A DNA stretch of 64,000 bases. It comes from Bacteroidota bacterium (lineage in GTDB: Bacteria > Bacteroidota > Ignavibacteria > Kryptoniales > JAKASW01). A program made the position numbers and the translations under genes. Shown here piece after piece: positions 57,519-63,606 of this stretch. The stretch's first letter is position 1. The number at the start of each line of letters is the position of its first letter. The notes under the pieces are model-generated. The model saw only the letters and a list, made by a program, of their open reading frames with translations, was not told where the DNA came from and made no database searches. The DNA is taken from contig JAJZNW010000077.1 in assembly GCA_021811615.1 (NCBI GenBank), positions 1 to 64,000 on the forward strand, read 5' to 3'.

Positions 57519-58184
57519 TCAGTAAACAAAAGGTATCAGGCGCGCGGTTCGCTTCGCATAAGACCTGTACTCGTCGCCATAACGGTCTGCAAGATATTTG
57601 TCCTGCGCCGGTACGTTGGCGAACGCGAAGCTGCCGAACATCAGTGCCGGTATGATGAGAAGTGCAGGCTGCCCCGACATCAGAACCCACCCCGTAAAAA
57701 GGACAATATCTCCGAAGTAGTTCACATGGCGCGAAAGTCTCCACATACCGCCTGTGTAGAGATGACCTTTGTTCTCCGGACGCCGTTTCCAAACCATCCT
57801 CTGCCACTCCGATCCCGTATTGATCGCAGAACCCATTAGTACCATTACTCCGCCGACAAGCGTCCATATTCCTACCCTCACATCGCTCATCGCGCCGAAG
57901 TAGGCGATGAGAATATCGATGAGGCCCACCCACACGGCAATCATGGCGACTTCGCTCCAGCCAACTTTTCGTTTTATGAAGACAACGATTGTCGCCAGCA
58001 CGCGCAGGAAGTAAAGGCTCGCGGCCATCGCAAGCAATAAACGTCGCAGCGCCGAGCTTTCCTGATGTTGGCCGCCGAAGAGAATCAACAACGCCACAAC
58101 GACAATCAGGAAATGCAATGCGGCGAGAGTTCCCTTTGACTTAGGTGACGGCGATTTGTCCCGATATATTTCTGATTGATCCAT
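57519..58184 (-). CDS. DUF1295 family membrane protein (steroid 5-alpha-reductase/ICMT-like)
   Basis: A 221-residue protein with about six hydrophobic segments. The block GSEWQRMVWKRRPENKGHLYTGGMWRLSRHVNYFGDIVLFTGW, followed by DKYLADRYGDEYRSYAKRTARLIPFVY, is the signature of DUF1295, related to 3-oxo-5-alpha-steroid 4-dehydrogenases and isoprenylcysteine methyltransferases. These bind NADPH or SAM in the membrane; the actual substrate of the bacterial DUF1295 group is not established. It is the only minus-strand gene between 43 and 64 kb. Confidence 0.85.
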   Translation of the reverse strand: MDQSEIYRDKSPSPKSKGTLAALHFLIVVVALLILFGGQHQESSALRRLLLAMAASLYFLRVLATIVVFIKRKVGWSEVAMIAVWVGLIDILIAYFGAMSDVRVGIWTLVGGVMVLMGSAINTGSEWQRMVWKRRPENKGHLYTGGMWRLSRHVNYFGDIVLFTGWVLMSGQPALLIIPALMFGSFAFANVPAQDKYLADRYGDEYRSYAKRTARLIPFVY

Positions 58185-58404: not shown

Positions 58405-58473
58405 ATGGTAGCTGTATCGTGTGAGAAATTATCCCGAACTTCCGCCGGGATTCATCAGAGGACGACGAAGTAA
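58405..58473 (+). CDS. Possible 22-residue leader peptide upstream of the radical SAM gene
   Basis: A short frame, MVAVSCEKLSRTSAGIHQRT and two more residues, begins with ATG behind AAGGAAGGACG, the best Shine-Dalgarno in the region. Its TAA is one base before the ATG of the radical SAM gene (TAAAATG). It may couple translation or act as a leader; it may also be chance. It has no known family. Confidence 0.35.
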   Translation: MVAVSCEKLSRTSAGIHQRTTK

Positions 58474-58474
58474 A

Positions 58475-59716
58475 ATGATCCGGCGTGATCTCTCCAGGCG
58501 GGAGTTCATCTCCATATCAGGTTTAGCCGCCGGTAGCACGTATGCCGCGCTCTCTTCGCCAGCACTCTTCCGGCAACTCCTTTCGTGGGTGGAGCGGATT
58601 CCCGAGGTAAACCCATATCAGAAATTTCTCGCGGACCAGCCGATCGCGAGATACTGGGTGTCGACAGAATCGATAAACGCAGATTGCCTCAGATGCCACT
58701 CCTCCTCCGAGACAGGCGGCAGGAAAAGCTTTGACCACGAAGAAAGATTTGTGAAATGTCTTTTGTGCGCGCAGGGCTGTGTGATGAAAGAGAACGAGCG
58801 CGGGAAATGCAGGGCGAGGATGAATGTGAAGGGACGGCTCAGAAGCCTCGTCTACGGACGACCCATCGCGATTCATGTGGACCCGATAGAGAAGAAACCA
58901 TTCTACCATTTCCTCCCGGGAAACCAGGCATACTCTCTTGCCACCGCCGGATGTCCCCTGTCATGTCAGTTCTGCCAGAACTGGGAGATCTCACAGGCGA
59001 AGCCGGAGGACTACGATGTAAAATTCGTCCCGCCCGACAACATCGTATACAACTCGATGTCGGAAAGCGCACCTATTATCGCGTTCACCTACAACGAACC
59101 GACTGTCTTCGTGGAATACCTGACCGACATATCCCGTGCGGCACGGAAGAAGGGAATCAGAACTGTCCTGGTAAGCTGCGGTTTCATGAACGAGGAACCT
59201 CTTCGAGAAATGTGCGACGTACTCGACGCGATCAAGATCGATCTGAAGGGATTCAGCGAAGACTTCTACCGCAAGGTTTGCGGTGCTGAACTGAAACCGG
59301 TGCTTCGGAGCATAAAGCAGGTCGCGTCGAGCAGGGTCCATCTCGAAATCGTGAACCTCGTCGTTCCCACTCTGAACGACTCCGACAAGATGATGAGTGC
59401 CCTCTCGGAATGGATCGTCGGCGAGACCGGCACCGACGTCCCGGTTCACTTCACGAGGTTTCATCCCGATTATCGCCTGCTCAATCTTCCGCCCACTCCC
59501 ATTTCGACGCTCGAACGGGCGAGAGACATCGCCATTTCGAAAGGAATTCATTACGCGTTTGTGGGAAACGTCCCGGGACATCCTGGCAACTCGACCTACT
59601 GCCCTTCCTGCGGGAAGATCGTGATAAAGCGGAGCGGTTTCTTCCCGGTCGAATATCATTTGAAGGACGGCCGCTGTGAATTCTGCGGCCGTGAGATAGC
59701 GGGCGTCTGGAAATAA
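58475..59716 (+). CDS. AmmeMemoRadiSam system radical SAM enzyme with Tat signal
   Basis: A 413-residue radical SAM protein. The cluster-binding CxxxCxxC is at Cys160, Cys164 and Cys167 (TAGCPLSCQFCQNW). Upstream are the family-typical cysteines CLLCAQGC (95-102) and Cys112, and the C-terminus has two CxxC pairs (YCPSCGK, CEFCGRE). The N-terminus starts MIRRDLSRREFISISGLAAG, a twin-arginine signal, so the folded, cofactor-loaded enzyme may be exported. A CLRCH motif at 71-75 fits covalent haem c attachment, though Tat-folded export makes that uncertain. I chose ATG 58475; a GTG at 58421 is possible. Partners Memo and AMMECR1 are fused in the next gene. The reaction is not established. Confidence 0.9.
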   Translation: MIRRDLSRREFISISGLAAGSTYAALSSPALFRQLLSWVERIPEVNPYQKFLADQPIARYWVSTESINADCLRCHSSSETGGRKSFDHEERFVKCLLCAQGCVMKENERGKCRARMNVKGRLRSLVYGRPIAIHVDPIEKKPFYHFLPGNQAYSLATAGCPLSCQFCQNWEISQAKPEDYDVKFVPPDNIVYNSMSESAPIIAFTYNEPTVFVEYLTDISRAARKKGIRTVLVSCGFMNEEPLREMCDVLDAIKIDLKGFSEDFYRKVCGAELKPVLRSIKQVASSRVHLEIVNLVVPTLNDSDKMMSALSEWIVGETGTDVPVHFTRFHPDYRLLNLPPTPISTLERARDIAISKGIHYAFVGNVPGHPGNSTYCPSCGKIVIKRSGFFPVEYHLKDGRCEFCGREIAGVWK

Positions 59717-59775
59717 CTTGTCCGGAGCGTTCCGAGGTCTGACCGACATTAGTGCTCCATGAATGGAGGTGACCG

Positions 59776-61305
59776 ATGAAGGAAATAATATGTTGCTTCG
59801 CCCTTCTCCTGTTGATAGGTTCGTGCCGTGGCCAGAAAATCGAAACGCACGGATCGAAAGAGAAGCCGGTAAAGCCGGCCGCGTTCGCTGGTAAGTTTTA
59901 TCCTGCCGATTCGACCAAGTTGAGAGCGGCCATCAAAGCTTTTCTTGCTGATGCGAAACCAGCAGTCGCCGCACATCCCGTCGCCATCATCGTCCCACAC
60001 GCCGGCTATATCTTCTCCGGCCAGATAGCTGCCGACGCATATAACCAGACGAGGAACGGTGACTACGAACTGGTTGCCGTGCTCGGGACTAATCACACCA
60101 CTGCCGGATTCGAAGGAGCCTCAGTCTACAGCGACGGAGGATTCGGGACACCGTTGGGTACCTCGGCGGTTGACGACAGCACCGCGAATGAGCTCCTCAC
60201 AGCGTATCCCCCCGCGACGCTGGACATTGCCGTCCATGAGAACGAACACTCGGTCGAAGTACAGATCCCGTTCATTCAATATCTCTTTCCGAACGCGAGA
60301 ATCCTTCCCATCGTGGTAAGCGAAACAGATCCCGGCAACTGCGCCGCATTCGGACGCGCCCTTGCAGGAGTATTGAAGAATCGCAAAGCGCTGATTGTCG
60401 CGAGCTCCGACCTTTCACACTATCCACGGTTCGAAGACGCCGTAAGGATCGATTCCGCTTCACTTGAAGCGATAGCGAGCCTGGACATGGACCGGATGGT
60501 CTCTCATTTCAGGAAGACGATCCGACAGAGAGTTCCCCAGTTGTCGACGTGCGCGTGTGGTGAAGCGCCGATTATAGCCGCAGTAGCCGCGGCTAAGGAA
60601 CTCGGCGCGAGCAAGGGAACAATAATCAGCTACAGCAATTCCGGCTACAATCCAGCCGGAAAGAGCGACCAGGTAGTCGGGTACGGCGCCGTGGTGATAA
60701 CCGAAGGCGGGCAGACTCTTCCGCCGGAACCCGACACGGCTATTTCCGGCACCGGGTTCAAACTCGACCCGCAGGAAAAGTCGGCTCTCCTGAAATACGC
60801 GCGAAAGACACTCGAGCAGATCTTCGCCACCGAAACCGTCCCTCTCCCCCGCGATCTTGGGAGTATGGCGGAAGCGAGGCGCGGAGCATTCGTGACGCTG
60901 AGGAAAGGCGGCGAACTCCGCGGCTGCATCGGAAGCATGACCGACGACAGGCCTTTGGGAACAGTTGTCGGCGCGATGGCGCTCCATGCGGCATTCAACG
61001 ATCCGAGGTTCCCGCCCTTGAGAGAATCGGAATTGAAAGATGTCGAAATCGAGATATCGGTTCTCACTCCTTTCAAGGAAGTGCACGGTGCAGAAGAAAT
61101 CGTCCTCGGCCGCGACGGCGTGGTGATCAGGAAAGGAGACAGGCAGGCTGTATTTCTTCCGCAGGTCGCGACGGAAACGGGATGGGACAAGGAAACCTTC
61201 CTCGACCAGCTCTGCAACAAGGCCGGATTAATATCGGGAGATTGGAAGGATGCTCAGCTGTTCACTTTCCAGGCCGATGTTTTCGCCGAGCCTGCGGCAC
61301 ATTGA
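59776..61305 (+). CDS. AmmeMemoRadiSam proteins B and A fused: Memo-AMMECR1 lipoprotein
   Basis: A 509-residue fusion with a lipoprotein-type signal (MKEIICCFALLLLIGSC, acceptor Cys17). The Memo domain (about 33-310) has the residues that bind metal in human MEMO1: His75 in VPHAGYIFSG, His158 in ENEHSVEVQIPF and Cys261 in CACGEAPI. The AMMECR1 domain (about 325-505) has the conserved LRGCIG at 381-386 and FNDPRFPPL. GGAGGTGACCG precedes the ATG. In most genomes these are separate cytoplasmic proteins; here one exported lipoprotein follows a Tat-signalled radical SAM enzyme, so the module appears to work outside the cytoplasm. The activity is unknown; metal or redox chemistry is inferred. Confidence 0.9.
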   Translation: MKEIICCFALLLLIGSCRGQKIETHGSKEKPVKPAAFAGKFYPADSTKLRAAIKAFLADAKPAVAAHPVAIIVPHAGYIFSGQIAADAYNQTRNGDYELVAVLGTNHTTAGFEGASVYSDGGFGTPLGTSAVDDSTANELLTAYPPATLDIAVHENEHSVEVQIPFIQYLFPNARILPIVVSETDPGNCAAFGRALAGVLKNRKALIVASSDLSHYPRFEDAVRIDSASLEAIASLDMDRMVSHFRKTIRQRVPQLSTCACGEAPIIAAVAAAKELGASKGTIISYSNSGYNPAGKSDQVVGYGAVVITEGGQTLPPEPDTAISGTGFKLDPQEKSALLKYARKTLEQIFATETVPLPRDLGSMAEARRGAFVTLRKGGELRGCIGSMTDDRPLGTVVGAMALHAAFNDPRFPPLRESELKDVEIEISVLTPFKEVHGAEEIVLGRDGVVIRKGDRQAVFLPQVATETGWDKETFLDQLCNKAGLISGDWKDAQLFTFQADVFAEPAAH

Positions 61306-61327
61306 TGGATCGGAAGCCGCGGCACCA

Positions 61328-61360
61328 GGCGCCTCGTTCGCTCTTAGCGCCCGGGTTTTT
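61328..61360 (+). terminator. Weak terminator-like hairpin after the Memo-AMMECR1 gene
   Basis: Stem GGCGC/GCGCC (61328-61332 and 61347-61351) extended past one mismatch, followed by GGG and TTTTT. The stem is short, so read-through into the next gene is likely. Confidence 0.3.
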
Positions 61361-61410
61361 GCGTTTGAATTGAACACCTGCATCTTGATGCTACTTTGTT
61401 GCGGATCGAG

Positions 61411-63606
61411 ATGATAAAGAGCGGACGGTTACAAAATTCATCCACAGCATCATACCTGATCGCGGTTGGCTTCGTTTCCATTTTCGGACAGGTTGTAGTA
61501 CTTCGCGAGCTGAGCGTGTCGTTTTACGGAATAGAACTCATATATATCCTGTCACTCGGTATCTGGCTTCTCGGCACGGCTCTCGGTGCCGCTATCGGGC
61601 GCCGATCCGGCGACCCCGGCAAAAAGTGGGTGCATACCCTCTTCCTCATCGCATCTGCCTCACTGGCGATGGACATCGTATTCATCAGGGGAATGAGGAC
61701 GCTGTTTAACGCCGTCCCCGGTGGGTTTCTCCCGTTTCAGACTCAGATGATCGGCATGTCGCTGGCAATACTCCCGCTCAGTATGATCACAGGGCTCCTT
61801 TTCCGGTGGAGCGCGCGACTCTTTGCCGCCGGGGGGCACACACTTGCCGAATCATACGCGCTCGAAAGCGCAGGCGGAGTACTCGGAGGTCTGATGTCCA
61901 CCCTTCTCTTAGCCTGGGGACTTCAGAACATTTTCGCCGGGATCTTTTGCTGCGCCTGCTCACTCTTCGTCGTGAACGCCTGCTCATGGAAATCCGGATT
62001 CGAGGTGCAAAGGTACATTTCATTTGCAGGCCTGATCTTCCTTATCGTTGCCGCGGCGTTCTCGAACAGCCTCGACATGTGGATGACGTCGTGGGATCAT
62101 CCGGATTTGAGCGCGTCGCGAGATACACCGTATGGACGCATTACAGTCACCTCGCGAGATGGCCAGGTGATCGTTTTCGAAAACGACGCTCTCTCTTATG
62201 AAACGGAAACGACCTCGGCGGAAGAACTCGTTCAACTCTCCACCCTGCAGAGAGACGTTCCGCGAAAAGTCCTCGTTATCGGAGGCGGATTTGCAGGGGT
62301 TGTCAATGAGATGTTGAAACTCCCCGTCACAAGAATCGATTACGTGGAGATAAACAAAAGAGCTATCGGCATCCTCCGCATTCATCTCCCCGCGGAAATG
62401 TCAAGTTCGCTTAACGATGAAAGAGTCCGCATCATCTATGATGATCCGAGACGATTTCTTCGGACTCGAAACTCATATGACGCGATCCTGACGGCAATGC
62501 CGGAGCCGATGTCGGCGCAGGTAAATCGATTCTACACCACCGAGTTTTTCAGGCAATGTTCATCGAGTTTGAATTCGGGCGGAATATTCTCGTTCGCCAT
62601 CCGTTCCGCGGAGAATTTGTGGACACCTCACCTTCTAAACAGAAACAGGAGTGTTTACGCGGCGCTGAAAGCCGTCTTCAGGCATGTCGTGGTCGTGCCA
62701 GGTGTCACCAACATCTTCATCGCATCCGACTCCGCGCTCACCACCCATCCCGCCATTCTCGGGGAACGTCTTTCAAAAAGAAGAATCGAAACGCGGCTCG
62801 TCAGCATTGAGTATGTCAACTACCTTTACACAAACGACAGGTTCTCTGCCGTAAACACCGTACTCTCTCAGGAGATCTATGATCCCAATTCCGACACTCA
62901 TCCGGCATGTTACAGCCACACGATCTCCATATGGTTATCAAGGCTGCTTGTCGGTTTCGACTTGCCCGGTTTGCGTTCGTTTGGGTTGAACAGGATTCTT
63001 AAGTCTCCGGCATTATGGATTCTCGCCTTGGCGGCAGTTGTGTTGGGGGTTGGAAAAAGATTCGCCTCAACACGCAGGTTCATCGTGATGTTTCTGGCCG
63101 GGGCTGTCGGTATGATATCGGAGACAGTGATTCTGCTGAATTACCAGAGCTCGTGCGGGGCACTGTACCAGGACATAGGACTCCTTCTCATGATGTTCAT
63201 GACGGGGCTCGCCGCCGGCGCCGCGTTGACGGCAAGGTTGATATCCAAACGGCAATCCGCGGGAAGAAGGAACGGATGGTGGGGGGCGATAATTCTCGGC
63301 GGGCTCGGATTACTTAATCTCCTTGTATATTACGGAGTAAAATTCGATCTACTAGGCGGCCTTGCAATCGCATCAGTAATACTGGCACTAGACGGTGCTT
63401 TCGTCGCCGGAGTCTTCGCTTTTGAAAGCCTGCGCGGCATCGATGCGCGAACCGGTTTTATGTCATGGCTTTATTCCGCCGACCTGATTGGCGGGTGTAT
63501 TGGCACGGTAGCCGCGAGTCTGTTTCTCATACCTATCTTCGGGATACCGGTGACGACGCTTTCGGGAGCGGCGATTGCCTTCCTGGCCATCGCATTTCTG
63601 AGATAG
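61411..63606 (+). CDS. Membrane-embedded spermidine-synthase-like protein
   Basis: A 731-residue protein: about six N-terminal membrane segments (1-220), a SAM-methyltransferase-like SpeE fold (about 240-480) and about six C-terminal membrane segments (530-730). The nucleotide-binding loop reads VLVIGGGFAGVVNEML instead of the usual GGGDGG, VEIN is kept, and the canonical D-S-T-D-P catalytic stretch is TAMPEP, so the catalytic Asp is replaced by Ala362. It is therefore unlikely to make spermidine; it may bind SAM or a related ligand. I chose ATG 61411; the frame extends five codons to a TTG. It follows the AmmeMemoRadiSam genes on the same strand and probably belongs to the same system. Confidence 0.85.
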   Translation: MIKSGRLQNSSTASYLIAVGFVSIFGQVVVLRELSVSFYGIELIYILSLGIWLLGTALGAAIGRRSGDPGKKWVHTLFLIASASLAMDIVFIRGMRTLFNAVPGGFLPFQTQMIGMSLAILPLSMITGLLFRWSARLFAAGGHTLAESYALESAGGVLGGLMSTLLLAWGLQNIFAGIFCCACSLFVVNACSWKSGFEVQRYISFAGLIFLIVAAAFSNSLDMWMTSWDHPDLSASRDTPYGRITVTSRDGQVIVFENDALSYETETTSAEELVQLSTLQRDVPRKVLVIGGGFAGVVNEMLKLPVTRIDYVEINKRAIGILRIHLPAEMSSSLNDERVRIIYDDPRRFLRTRNSYDAILTAMPEPMSAQVNRFYTTEFFRQCSSSLNSGGIFSFAIRSAENLWTPHLLNRNRSVYAALKAVFRHVVVVPGVTNIFIASDSALTTHPAILGERLSKRRIETRLVSIEYVNYLYTNDRFSAVNTVLSQEIYDPNSDTHPACYSHTISIWLSRLLVGFDLPGLRSFGLNRILKSPALWILALAAVVLGVGKRFASTRRFIVMFLAGAVGMISETVILLNYQSSCGALYQDIGLLLMMFMTGLAAGAALTARLISKRQSAGRRNGWWGAIILGGLGLLNLLVYYGVKFDLLGGLAIASVILALDGAFVAGVFAFESLRGIDARTGFMSWLYSADLIGGCIGTVAASLFLIPIFGIPVTTLSGAAIAFLAIAFLR

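Follow-up and report, generated by a model that had tools for sequence, protein, structure and literature searches.

The AmmeMemoRadiSam system is known as a soluble set of a radical S-adenosylmethionine (SAM) enzyme, a Memo protein and an AMMECR1 protein, for which we know of no established reaction. Radical SAM enzymes are regarded as cytoplasmic, because both SAM and low-potential electrons are found inside the cell. In humans, Memo and AMMECR1 have been associated with the handling of metals and with a developmental syndrome. This work concerns a variant of the system in a Bacteroidota bacterium, in which the radical SAM enzyme and a Memo-AMMECR1 fusion both carry predicted export signals, and are encoded next to a membrane protein resembling spermidine synthase (SpeE). 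The locus lies in the first 64 kb of a 74.5 kb contig (C47) of a 4.49 Mb draft genome; this whole 64 kb stretch is referred to as the window. On balance, we lean towards reading the three genes as an AmmeMemoRadiSam module that works outside the cytoplasm, with a membrane partner that carries SAM or its products from one side of the membrane to the other.

The genes are consecutive on the + strand, spanning 58475-63606. Firstly, the radical SAM gene (58475-59716, from an ATG, with an alternative GTG start at 58421) encodes a radical SAM enzyme of the AmmeMemoRadiSam family (TIGR04337; 370 bits, cut-off 220). Secondly, the adjacent gene (59776-61305) encodes the fusion of a Memo domain (TIGR04336, 246 bits, cut-off 26) with an AMMECR1 domain (TIGR04335, 174 bits, cut-off 99). 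Thirdly, the SpeE-like gene (61411-63606, alternative TTG start at 61396) encodes a 731-residue protein with 14 predicted transmembrane helices, and a Spermine_synth domain (72 bits) between its transmembrane blocks. An earlier note on this DNA had described exactly these proteins, a radical SAM enzyme with a twin-arginine signal, a Memo-AMMECR1 fusion with a lipoprotein signal and a polytopic protein with an altered spermidine-synthase domain, and each description was borne out; their order on one strand also stood. Two small points were corrected: the start of the row moves from 58405 to about 58475, and the SpeE domain is predicted to be outside the membrane.

Judged by its families, the window's trio is an AmmeMemoRadiSam system, with all three families above their cut-offs and both the radical SAM cysteines and the Memo pocket residues intact. 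Unlike the known system, however, its enzyme and fusion carry export signals, a transporter-like SpeE-like protein is a fixed extra component, and a cytosolic set is present alongside it in this genome. No relevant description of periplasmic or exported radical SAM enzymes was found in the limited literature searched, outside which Burroughs et al. 2019, on Memo gene contexts, may mention the association. The conservation of an exported set in many phyla makes radical SAM chemistry outside the cytoplasm, and the identity of its SAM supplier, testable questions, and opens a new route to finding out what Memo and AMMECR1 do.

Export signals and the cytosolic paralogues

The N-terminus of the window's radical SAM enzyme (MIRRDLSRREFISISGLAAGSTYAALSS) contains a predicted twin-arginine translocation (Tat) signal region (58475-58580), in which SRREFI fits the S/T-R-R-x-F-L pattern ahead of a hydrophobic stretch; TatC is encoded on another contig (C97) of the same genome. 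The hydrophobic N-terminus of the Memo-AMMECR1 fusion ends in the lipobox LLLLIGSC, giving a predicted lipoprotein signal (59776-59826) of sequence MKEIICCFALLLLIGSC, followed by RG. These calls were based on motifs and hydropathy, together with conservation or replacement among homologues. Tat-type N-termini (S/T-R-R-x-F-L or T-K-R-x-F-L) were found in nearly all radical SAM enzymes linked to a SpeE-like gene, and at many loci the homologues of the fusion begin with a lipobox or a general secretory (Sec)-type N-terminus.

Six enzymes from Omnitrophota have a Sec signal in place of the Tat signal, for example MKKLAVTIILCLGIFLINSRA. A tree was built from 96 enzymes, and its 60 exported forms (54 Tat and 6 Sec) are set apart from the rest by a branch supported at 96/85, with the Sec-type enzymes nested among them; the labels Tat, Sec and cytosolic were set per locus, from the copies linked to SpeE-like genes and inspection of N-termini, because an automatic hydropathy threshold mislabelled many Tat peptides. 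As both signal types share one supported side of the branch, export appears to have been kept while the type of signal changed. At three loci from metagenome-assembled genomes (MAGs) of archaea (Altiarchaeota/DPANN), a TatC gene adjoins the trio itself (L087 7760-8464, L093 4470-5162 and L112 11182-11883; E 1.8e-62 to 3.8e-56).

The window's genome also encodes a second, cytosolic-type AmmeMemoRadiSam set (contig C118, locus L046 7962-10430), in which the radical SAM enzyme, AMMECR1 and Memo are the products of separate, overlapping genes, all lacking a signal. Hence the export signals are specific to the window's copy, and their occurrence by chance was rejected on the basis of this signal-free paralogue and the comparison of homologues. 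The periplasmic action proposed in the earlier note is therefore well supported by the conserved Tat signals, their replacement by Sec signals in Omnitrophota, the lipoprotein or Sec signals of the fusion and the linkage to TatC, all of them features predicted from sequence.

The SpeE-like protein as a conserved partner

The two further genomes sampled from the window's genus carry these genes in an unchanged order (L036 and L037), whereas in other families of the class the trio is retained with an altered order (L038, L039 and L040). The trio is common among anaerobic microbes and, with its gene order varying, occurs in Kryptoniota, Ignavibacteria, Bacteroidota, Thermodesulfobacteriota, Latescibacterota, Acidobacteriota, Spirochaetota and archaeal MAGs. 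Given the shared order within the genus and this recurrence across phyla, the arrangement is not due to chance. When public genomes were searched with an alignment of the SpeE-like proteins, 309 relatives came up, and 80 of them were retained. The organisms include Kryptoniota, Ignavibacteriota, Bacteroidota, Thermodesulfobacteriota, Latescibacterota and Acidobacteriota, as well as Aminicenantes, KSB1, Spirochaetota, Omnitrophota and a few archaeal MAGs, the closest named relative being that of a Candidatus Kryptoniota MAG (60% identity). A radical SAM gene was present at 57 of the 80 loci, a Memo or AMMECR1 gene at 52 (fused at 47), and both kinds of partner at 47. The earlier note had chosen beforehand the conservation of this neighbourhood as a test that could overturn its reading, and it held: at least one other gene of the trio was found at 62 of the 80 loci, and the genes co-occur in each of three phyla.

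This co-occurrence is specific to the exported form of the enzyme in the window's phylum, where 69 of 296 genomes encode the radical SAM family and seven encode a full-length SpeE-like protein. Those seven are exactly the genomes with an exported-type enzyme (partial and at a contig end in one of them, G097), while the SpeE-like protein was absent from the 62 others of the 69, which have only cytosolic copies of the enzyme (Fisher p about 9e-10; neither this nor the following p values account for relatedness among genomes). Among 199 Acidobacteriota genomes, the enzyme was found in 55 of the 56 with a SpeE-like gene, and in 74 of the 143 without one (p 1e-11), with at least two copies in 51/56 and 12/143 respectively (p 7e-30). 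All 74 SpeE-like-encoding genomes among 198 Thermodesulfobacteriota had the enzyme, 65 of them in at least two copies, compared with 13 of the 124 lacking the SpeE-like gene (p 6e-29). The 34 genomes contributing SpeE-like loci all encoded the radical SAM family, 32 of them in at least two copies, and the pairwise distances of the three proteins were correlated across 24 loci (r = 0.94, 0.85 and 0.86). By these genomic comparisons, the SpeE-like gene goes with the exported form and is a conserved partner of the module, hinting that the module has a need that the outside of the cell cannot meet.

The AlphaFold2 model of the SpeE-like protein (predicted local distance difference test 87.7, predicted template modelling score 0.89) has seven transmembrane helices, a SpeE fold at approximately residues 233-515, and a further seven helices. 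This layout consists of six helices plus a seventh, the SpeE domain, and an eighth helix followed by six more, with helices 1-6 and 9-14 forming a direct internal repeat (hhalign 98.2%, E 3.9e-14), an arrangement resembling that of major-facilitator transporters. Pfam detected no transporter family in the transmembrane parts, and the likeness to transporters is drawn from the repeat alone. Under the positive-inside rule, the SpeE domain (62107-62955) is predicted to be outside and both termini inside in 49 of 49 homologues, with a mean of 19.5 lysine and arginine residues on inside segments against 2.9 on outside ones, and agreement between the two halves of the protein.

The residues of this domain were compared with those of spermidine synthases by alignment to 3anx, with their roles presumed from established SpeE structures. 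The acids that bind adenosine are conserved (E313 in 48/49 homologues, D345 in 49/49), whereas the acid of the GGGDG motif, through which SpeE recognises the amine of decarboxylated SAM, is absent in 49/49, and the first catalytic aspartate of DxxDP is missing in 43/49, being alanine in the window and aspartate in only six homologues. We read this as a putative site for adenosine or SAM that has lost its selectivity for the decarboxylated form, and identity as a membrane spermidine synthase was rejected, since the acids for decarboxylated SAM and for the polyamine are lost. The protein shares with SpeE and with the membrane SpeE of seven transmembrane helices (PRK03612) the fold and the adenosine-binding acids, and with the latter the seven helices ahead of the domain; it differs from them in lacking those other acids, in having a second transmembrane block homologous to the first, and in being tied to an exported radical SAM enzyme. 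As a conserved partner with residues that fit SAM or adenosine binding, it is best read as handling SAM or a SAM product, in agreement with the earlier note.

Such handling might be catalysis rather than transport. The module would still be exported, with the SpeE-like protein acting as an enzyme. On the outside, its domain would pass the aminocarboxypropyl or methyl moiety of SAM, or another adenosine-linked group, to the substrate that the radical SAM, Memo and AMMECR1 proteins process. The best Foldseek matches of the domain are aminopropyltransferases, and the full SpeE fold this implies (TM-score 0.73-0.78) is consistent with activity, as are an active-site acid kept in 47/49 homologues (E/D365) and a nearly invariant motif new to this group (PEPxTAQxNRFYTxEFF). 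An enzyme outside the membrane would need exported SAM all the same. However, this explanation is unlikely in our view, as the GGGDG acid and, in most homologues, the first aspartate of DxxDP are lost as described, and a duplicated repeat of six plus six helices exceeds the needs of an anchor.

SAM supply, electrons and the proposed mechanism

The most economical mechanism runs from SAM delivery, through radical generation, to modification of AMMECR1, Memo or a substrate bound by Memo. Sequence and comparison support its first steps, in which the radical SAM enzyme would be exported, usually folded with its iron-sulphur clusters through Tat, and the fusion would be anchored as a lipoprotein or secreted through Sec, such that both act outside the cytoplasmic membrane. 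The partner of 14 helices is strongly suggested to be a transporter-like repeat with its SpeE-fold domain facing the same outer side, and that domain to have kept the residues for adenosine while losing those that recognise decarboxylated SAM and activate polyamines. From the repeat, the SAM-fold domain and the coupling to export, we infer that this protein transports SAM: it may move SAM outward and pass it to the exported enzyme, or clear 5'-deoxyadenosine and methionine, thereby giving the enzyme a cofactor lacking in the periplasm. The enzyme would then generate a 5'-deoxyadenosyl radical, as in related glycyl-radical activases, and the radical may modify either domain of the fusion, AMMECR1 or Memo, or else a substrate, whether small molecule or protein, at the metal-binding pocket of Memo. 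The second, cytosolic set of many genomes would do the corresponding job inside the cell.

Electrons would come from redox partners that differ between lineages. In the window's clade, the candidate is a c-type haem site in the N-terminal extension of the enzyme, where a CXXCH segment (CLRCH, residues 71-75; 58685-58699) aligns ahead of a conserved histidine. It is found in 11 of 42 aligned enzymes, including the window's, with YXXCH in one close relative, and is carried by the window's genus, Melioribacter, Latescibacterota and part of Syntrophaceae; the window's genome has cytochrome c assembly genes (Cytochrom_C_asm). A haem universal to the module was rejected, given the limits of this distribution. 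In Omnitrophota, the radical SAM and SpeE-like genes are separated at five loci by a gene for a DsbD_2 (CcdA-like) membrane protein, whose cysteines are conserved and which could act as a relay (L078 2803-3453, L079 7291-7947, L083 7277-7924, L106 7312-7968 and L128 1965-2648). In Acidobacteriota and Aminicenantes, the gene for the exported enzyme has a DUF362 gene beside it at 14 loci, comprising L088 (12919-13941) and 13 others; the protein of this Acidobacteriota locus has a Tat signal, and a DUF6599 gene is nearby at some of these loci. Together, CXXCH, DsbD_2 and DUF362 are only suggestive of lineage-specific electron routes.

Such redox features near or in the module would also fit a different role for the SpeE-like protein, in which it brings electrons or a redox equivalent, or merely serves as an anchor, and SAM arrives by another route. 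As Tat exports folded proteins, the enzyme could for instance leave the cytoplasm loaded with SAM for a single turnover. We judge this improbable: Pfam consistently finds only SpeE or methyltransferase folds in the SpeE-like protein, and no recognisable redox domain, and the Sec-exported enzymes of Omnitrophota, being unfolded in transit, cannot carry SAM, yet keep the SpeE-like gene.

Several points weigh against an exported module supplied with SAM by its membrane partner. To our knowledge, a SAM pool is known in no periplasm, nor is any SAM exporter of such a type. Neither partner was found at 18 of the 80 SpeE-like loci, although several of these are contig ends, and there are Omnitrophota loci with the enzyme and the SpeE-like gene but without a nearby Memo-AMMECR1 gene. 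The named relatives are mostly MAGs. The CXXCH segment is confined to the window's clade, and even there has been lost in part, as in several Syntrophaceae. Finally, a catalytically intact membrane SpeE (L136, seven transmembrane helices followed by the SpeE domain) is also placed outside by the positive-inside rule, meaning either that the wider membrane-SpeE family is extracytoplasmic, which if true of the whole family would be notable in itself, or that the rule misleads here.

An outside position is odd for a canonical enzyme expected in the cytosol, and the signals themselves were inferred from sequence. Both considerations would suit an arrangement with non-functional signals, in which the proteins act on the cytoplasmic side of the membrane and the SpeE-like one is simply a polyamine enzyme of the usual membrane-bound kind. 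This is very improbable, in view of the Tat and Sec signals on one supported side of the enzyme tree, the signal-free paralogous set, the linkage to TatC and the loss of aminopropyltransferase residues. Extending the SAM-transport reading beyond the window leads to a more tentative proposal, that many anaerobic bacteria, and some archaea represented by MAGs, may export SAM via a dedicated transporter-like protein with a SpeE domain, thereby supplying radical SAM enzymes that work in the periplasm or on the cell surface. If true, radical SAM chemistry would for the first time be known to run outside the cytoplasm, and the SAM export system would likewise be the first of its kind.

Motifs of the enzyme and fusion, and neighbouring genes

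The radical SAM cluster motif CX3CX2C (C160, C164 and C167; 58952-58975) is invariant in the alignment, and reads CPLSCQFC in the window. The fold is of the type found in the activating enzyme of pyruvate formate-lyase, the nearest solved structure by both sequence and fold (TM-score 0.80 to 3cb8). Compared with the glycyl-radical activases, the exported enzyme adds its signal, an N-terminal motif of four cysteines and C-terminal CxxC knuckles. The former, CX2CX3CX9C (C95, C98, C102 and C112; 58757-58810), is invariant across the exported family and is a possible second iron-sulphur site, or a zinc site. In the latter (59600-59686), C376, C401 and C404 are invariant, and C379 is at least 90% conserved. 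No glycyl-radical enzyme was found among the recurrent neighbours of the exported radical SAM enzyme.

In human cells, MEMO1 binds copper (PMC9477392, which also describes its metal pocket) or iron (PMC11081632). Its pocket residues H49, H81, D189, H192 and C244 are retained in the window's Memo domain (59878-60693), aligning with H75, H107, D212, H215 and C261; unlike MEMO1, the window's protein is a predicted lipoprotein fused to AMMECR1. A role for the module in handling metal or redox cofactors, as the earlier note had ventured, is conjectural. The AMMECR1 domain (60790-61284) contains the motif LRGCIG, in which L, R, G, C and the last G are invariant, and one published model (PMC13386939) lists AMMECR1 among the foremost genomic markers for anaerobes.

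The genes around the trio vary between lineages: no universal further gene was found among its neighbours, and the accessory genes are lineage-specific. In the window, a divergent gene on the - strand (57519-58184) resembles membrane proteins of the DUF1295/isoprenylcysteine methyltransferase type, and is absent among the trio's recurrent neighbours. In one genome of another family of the class (L038 2233-4549), CbiM, CbiQ and an ATP-binding cassette (ABC) ATPase, associated with cobalt or nickel uptake, are encoded directly upstream of the trio.

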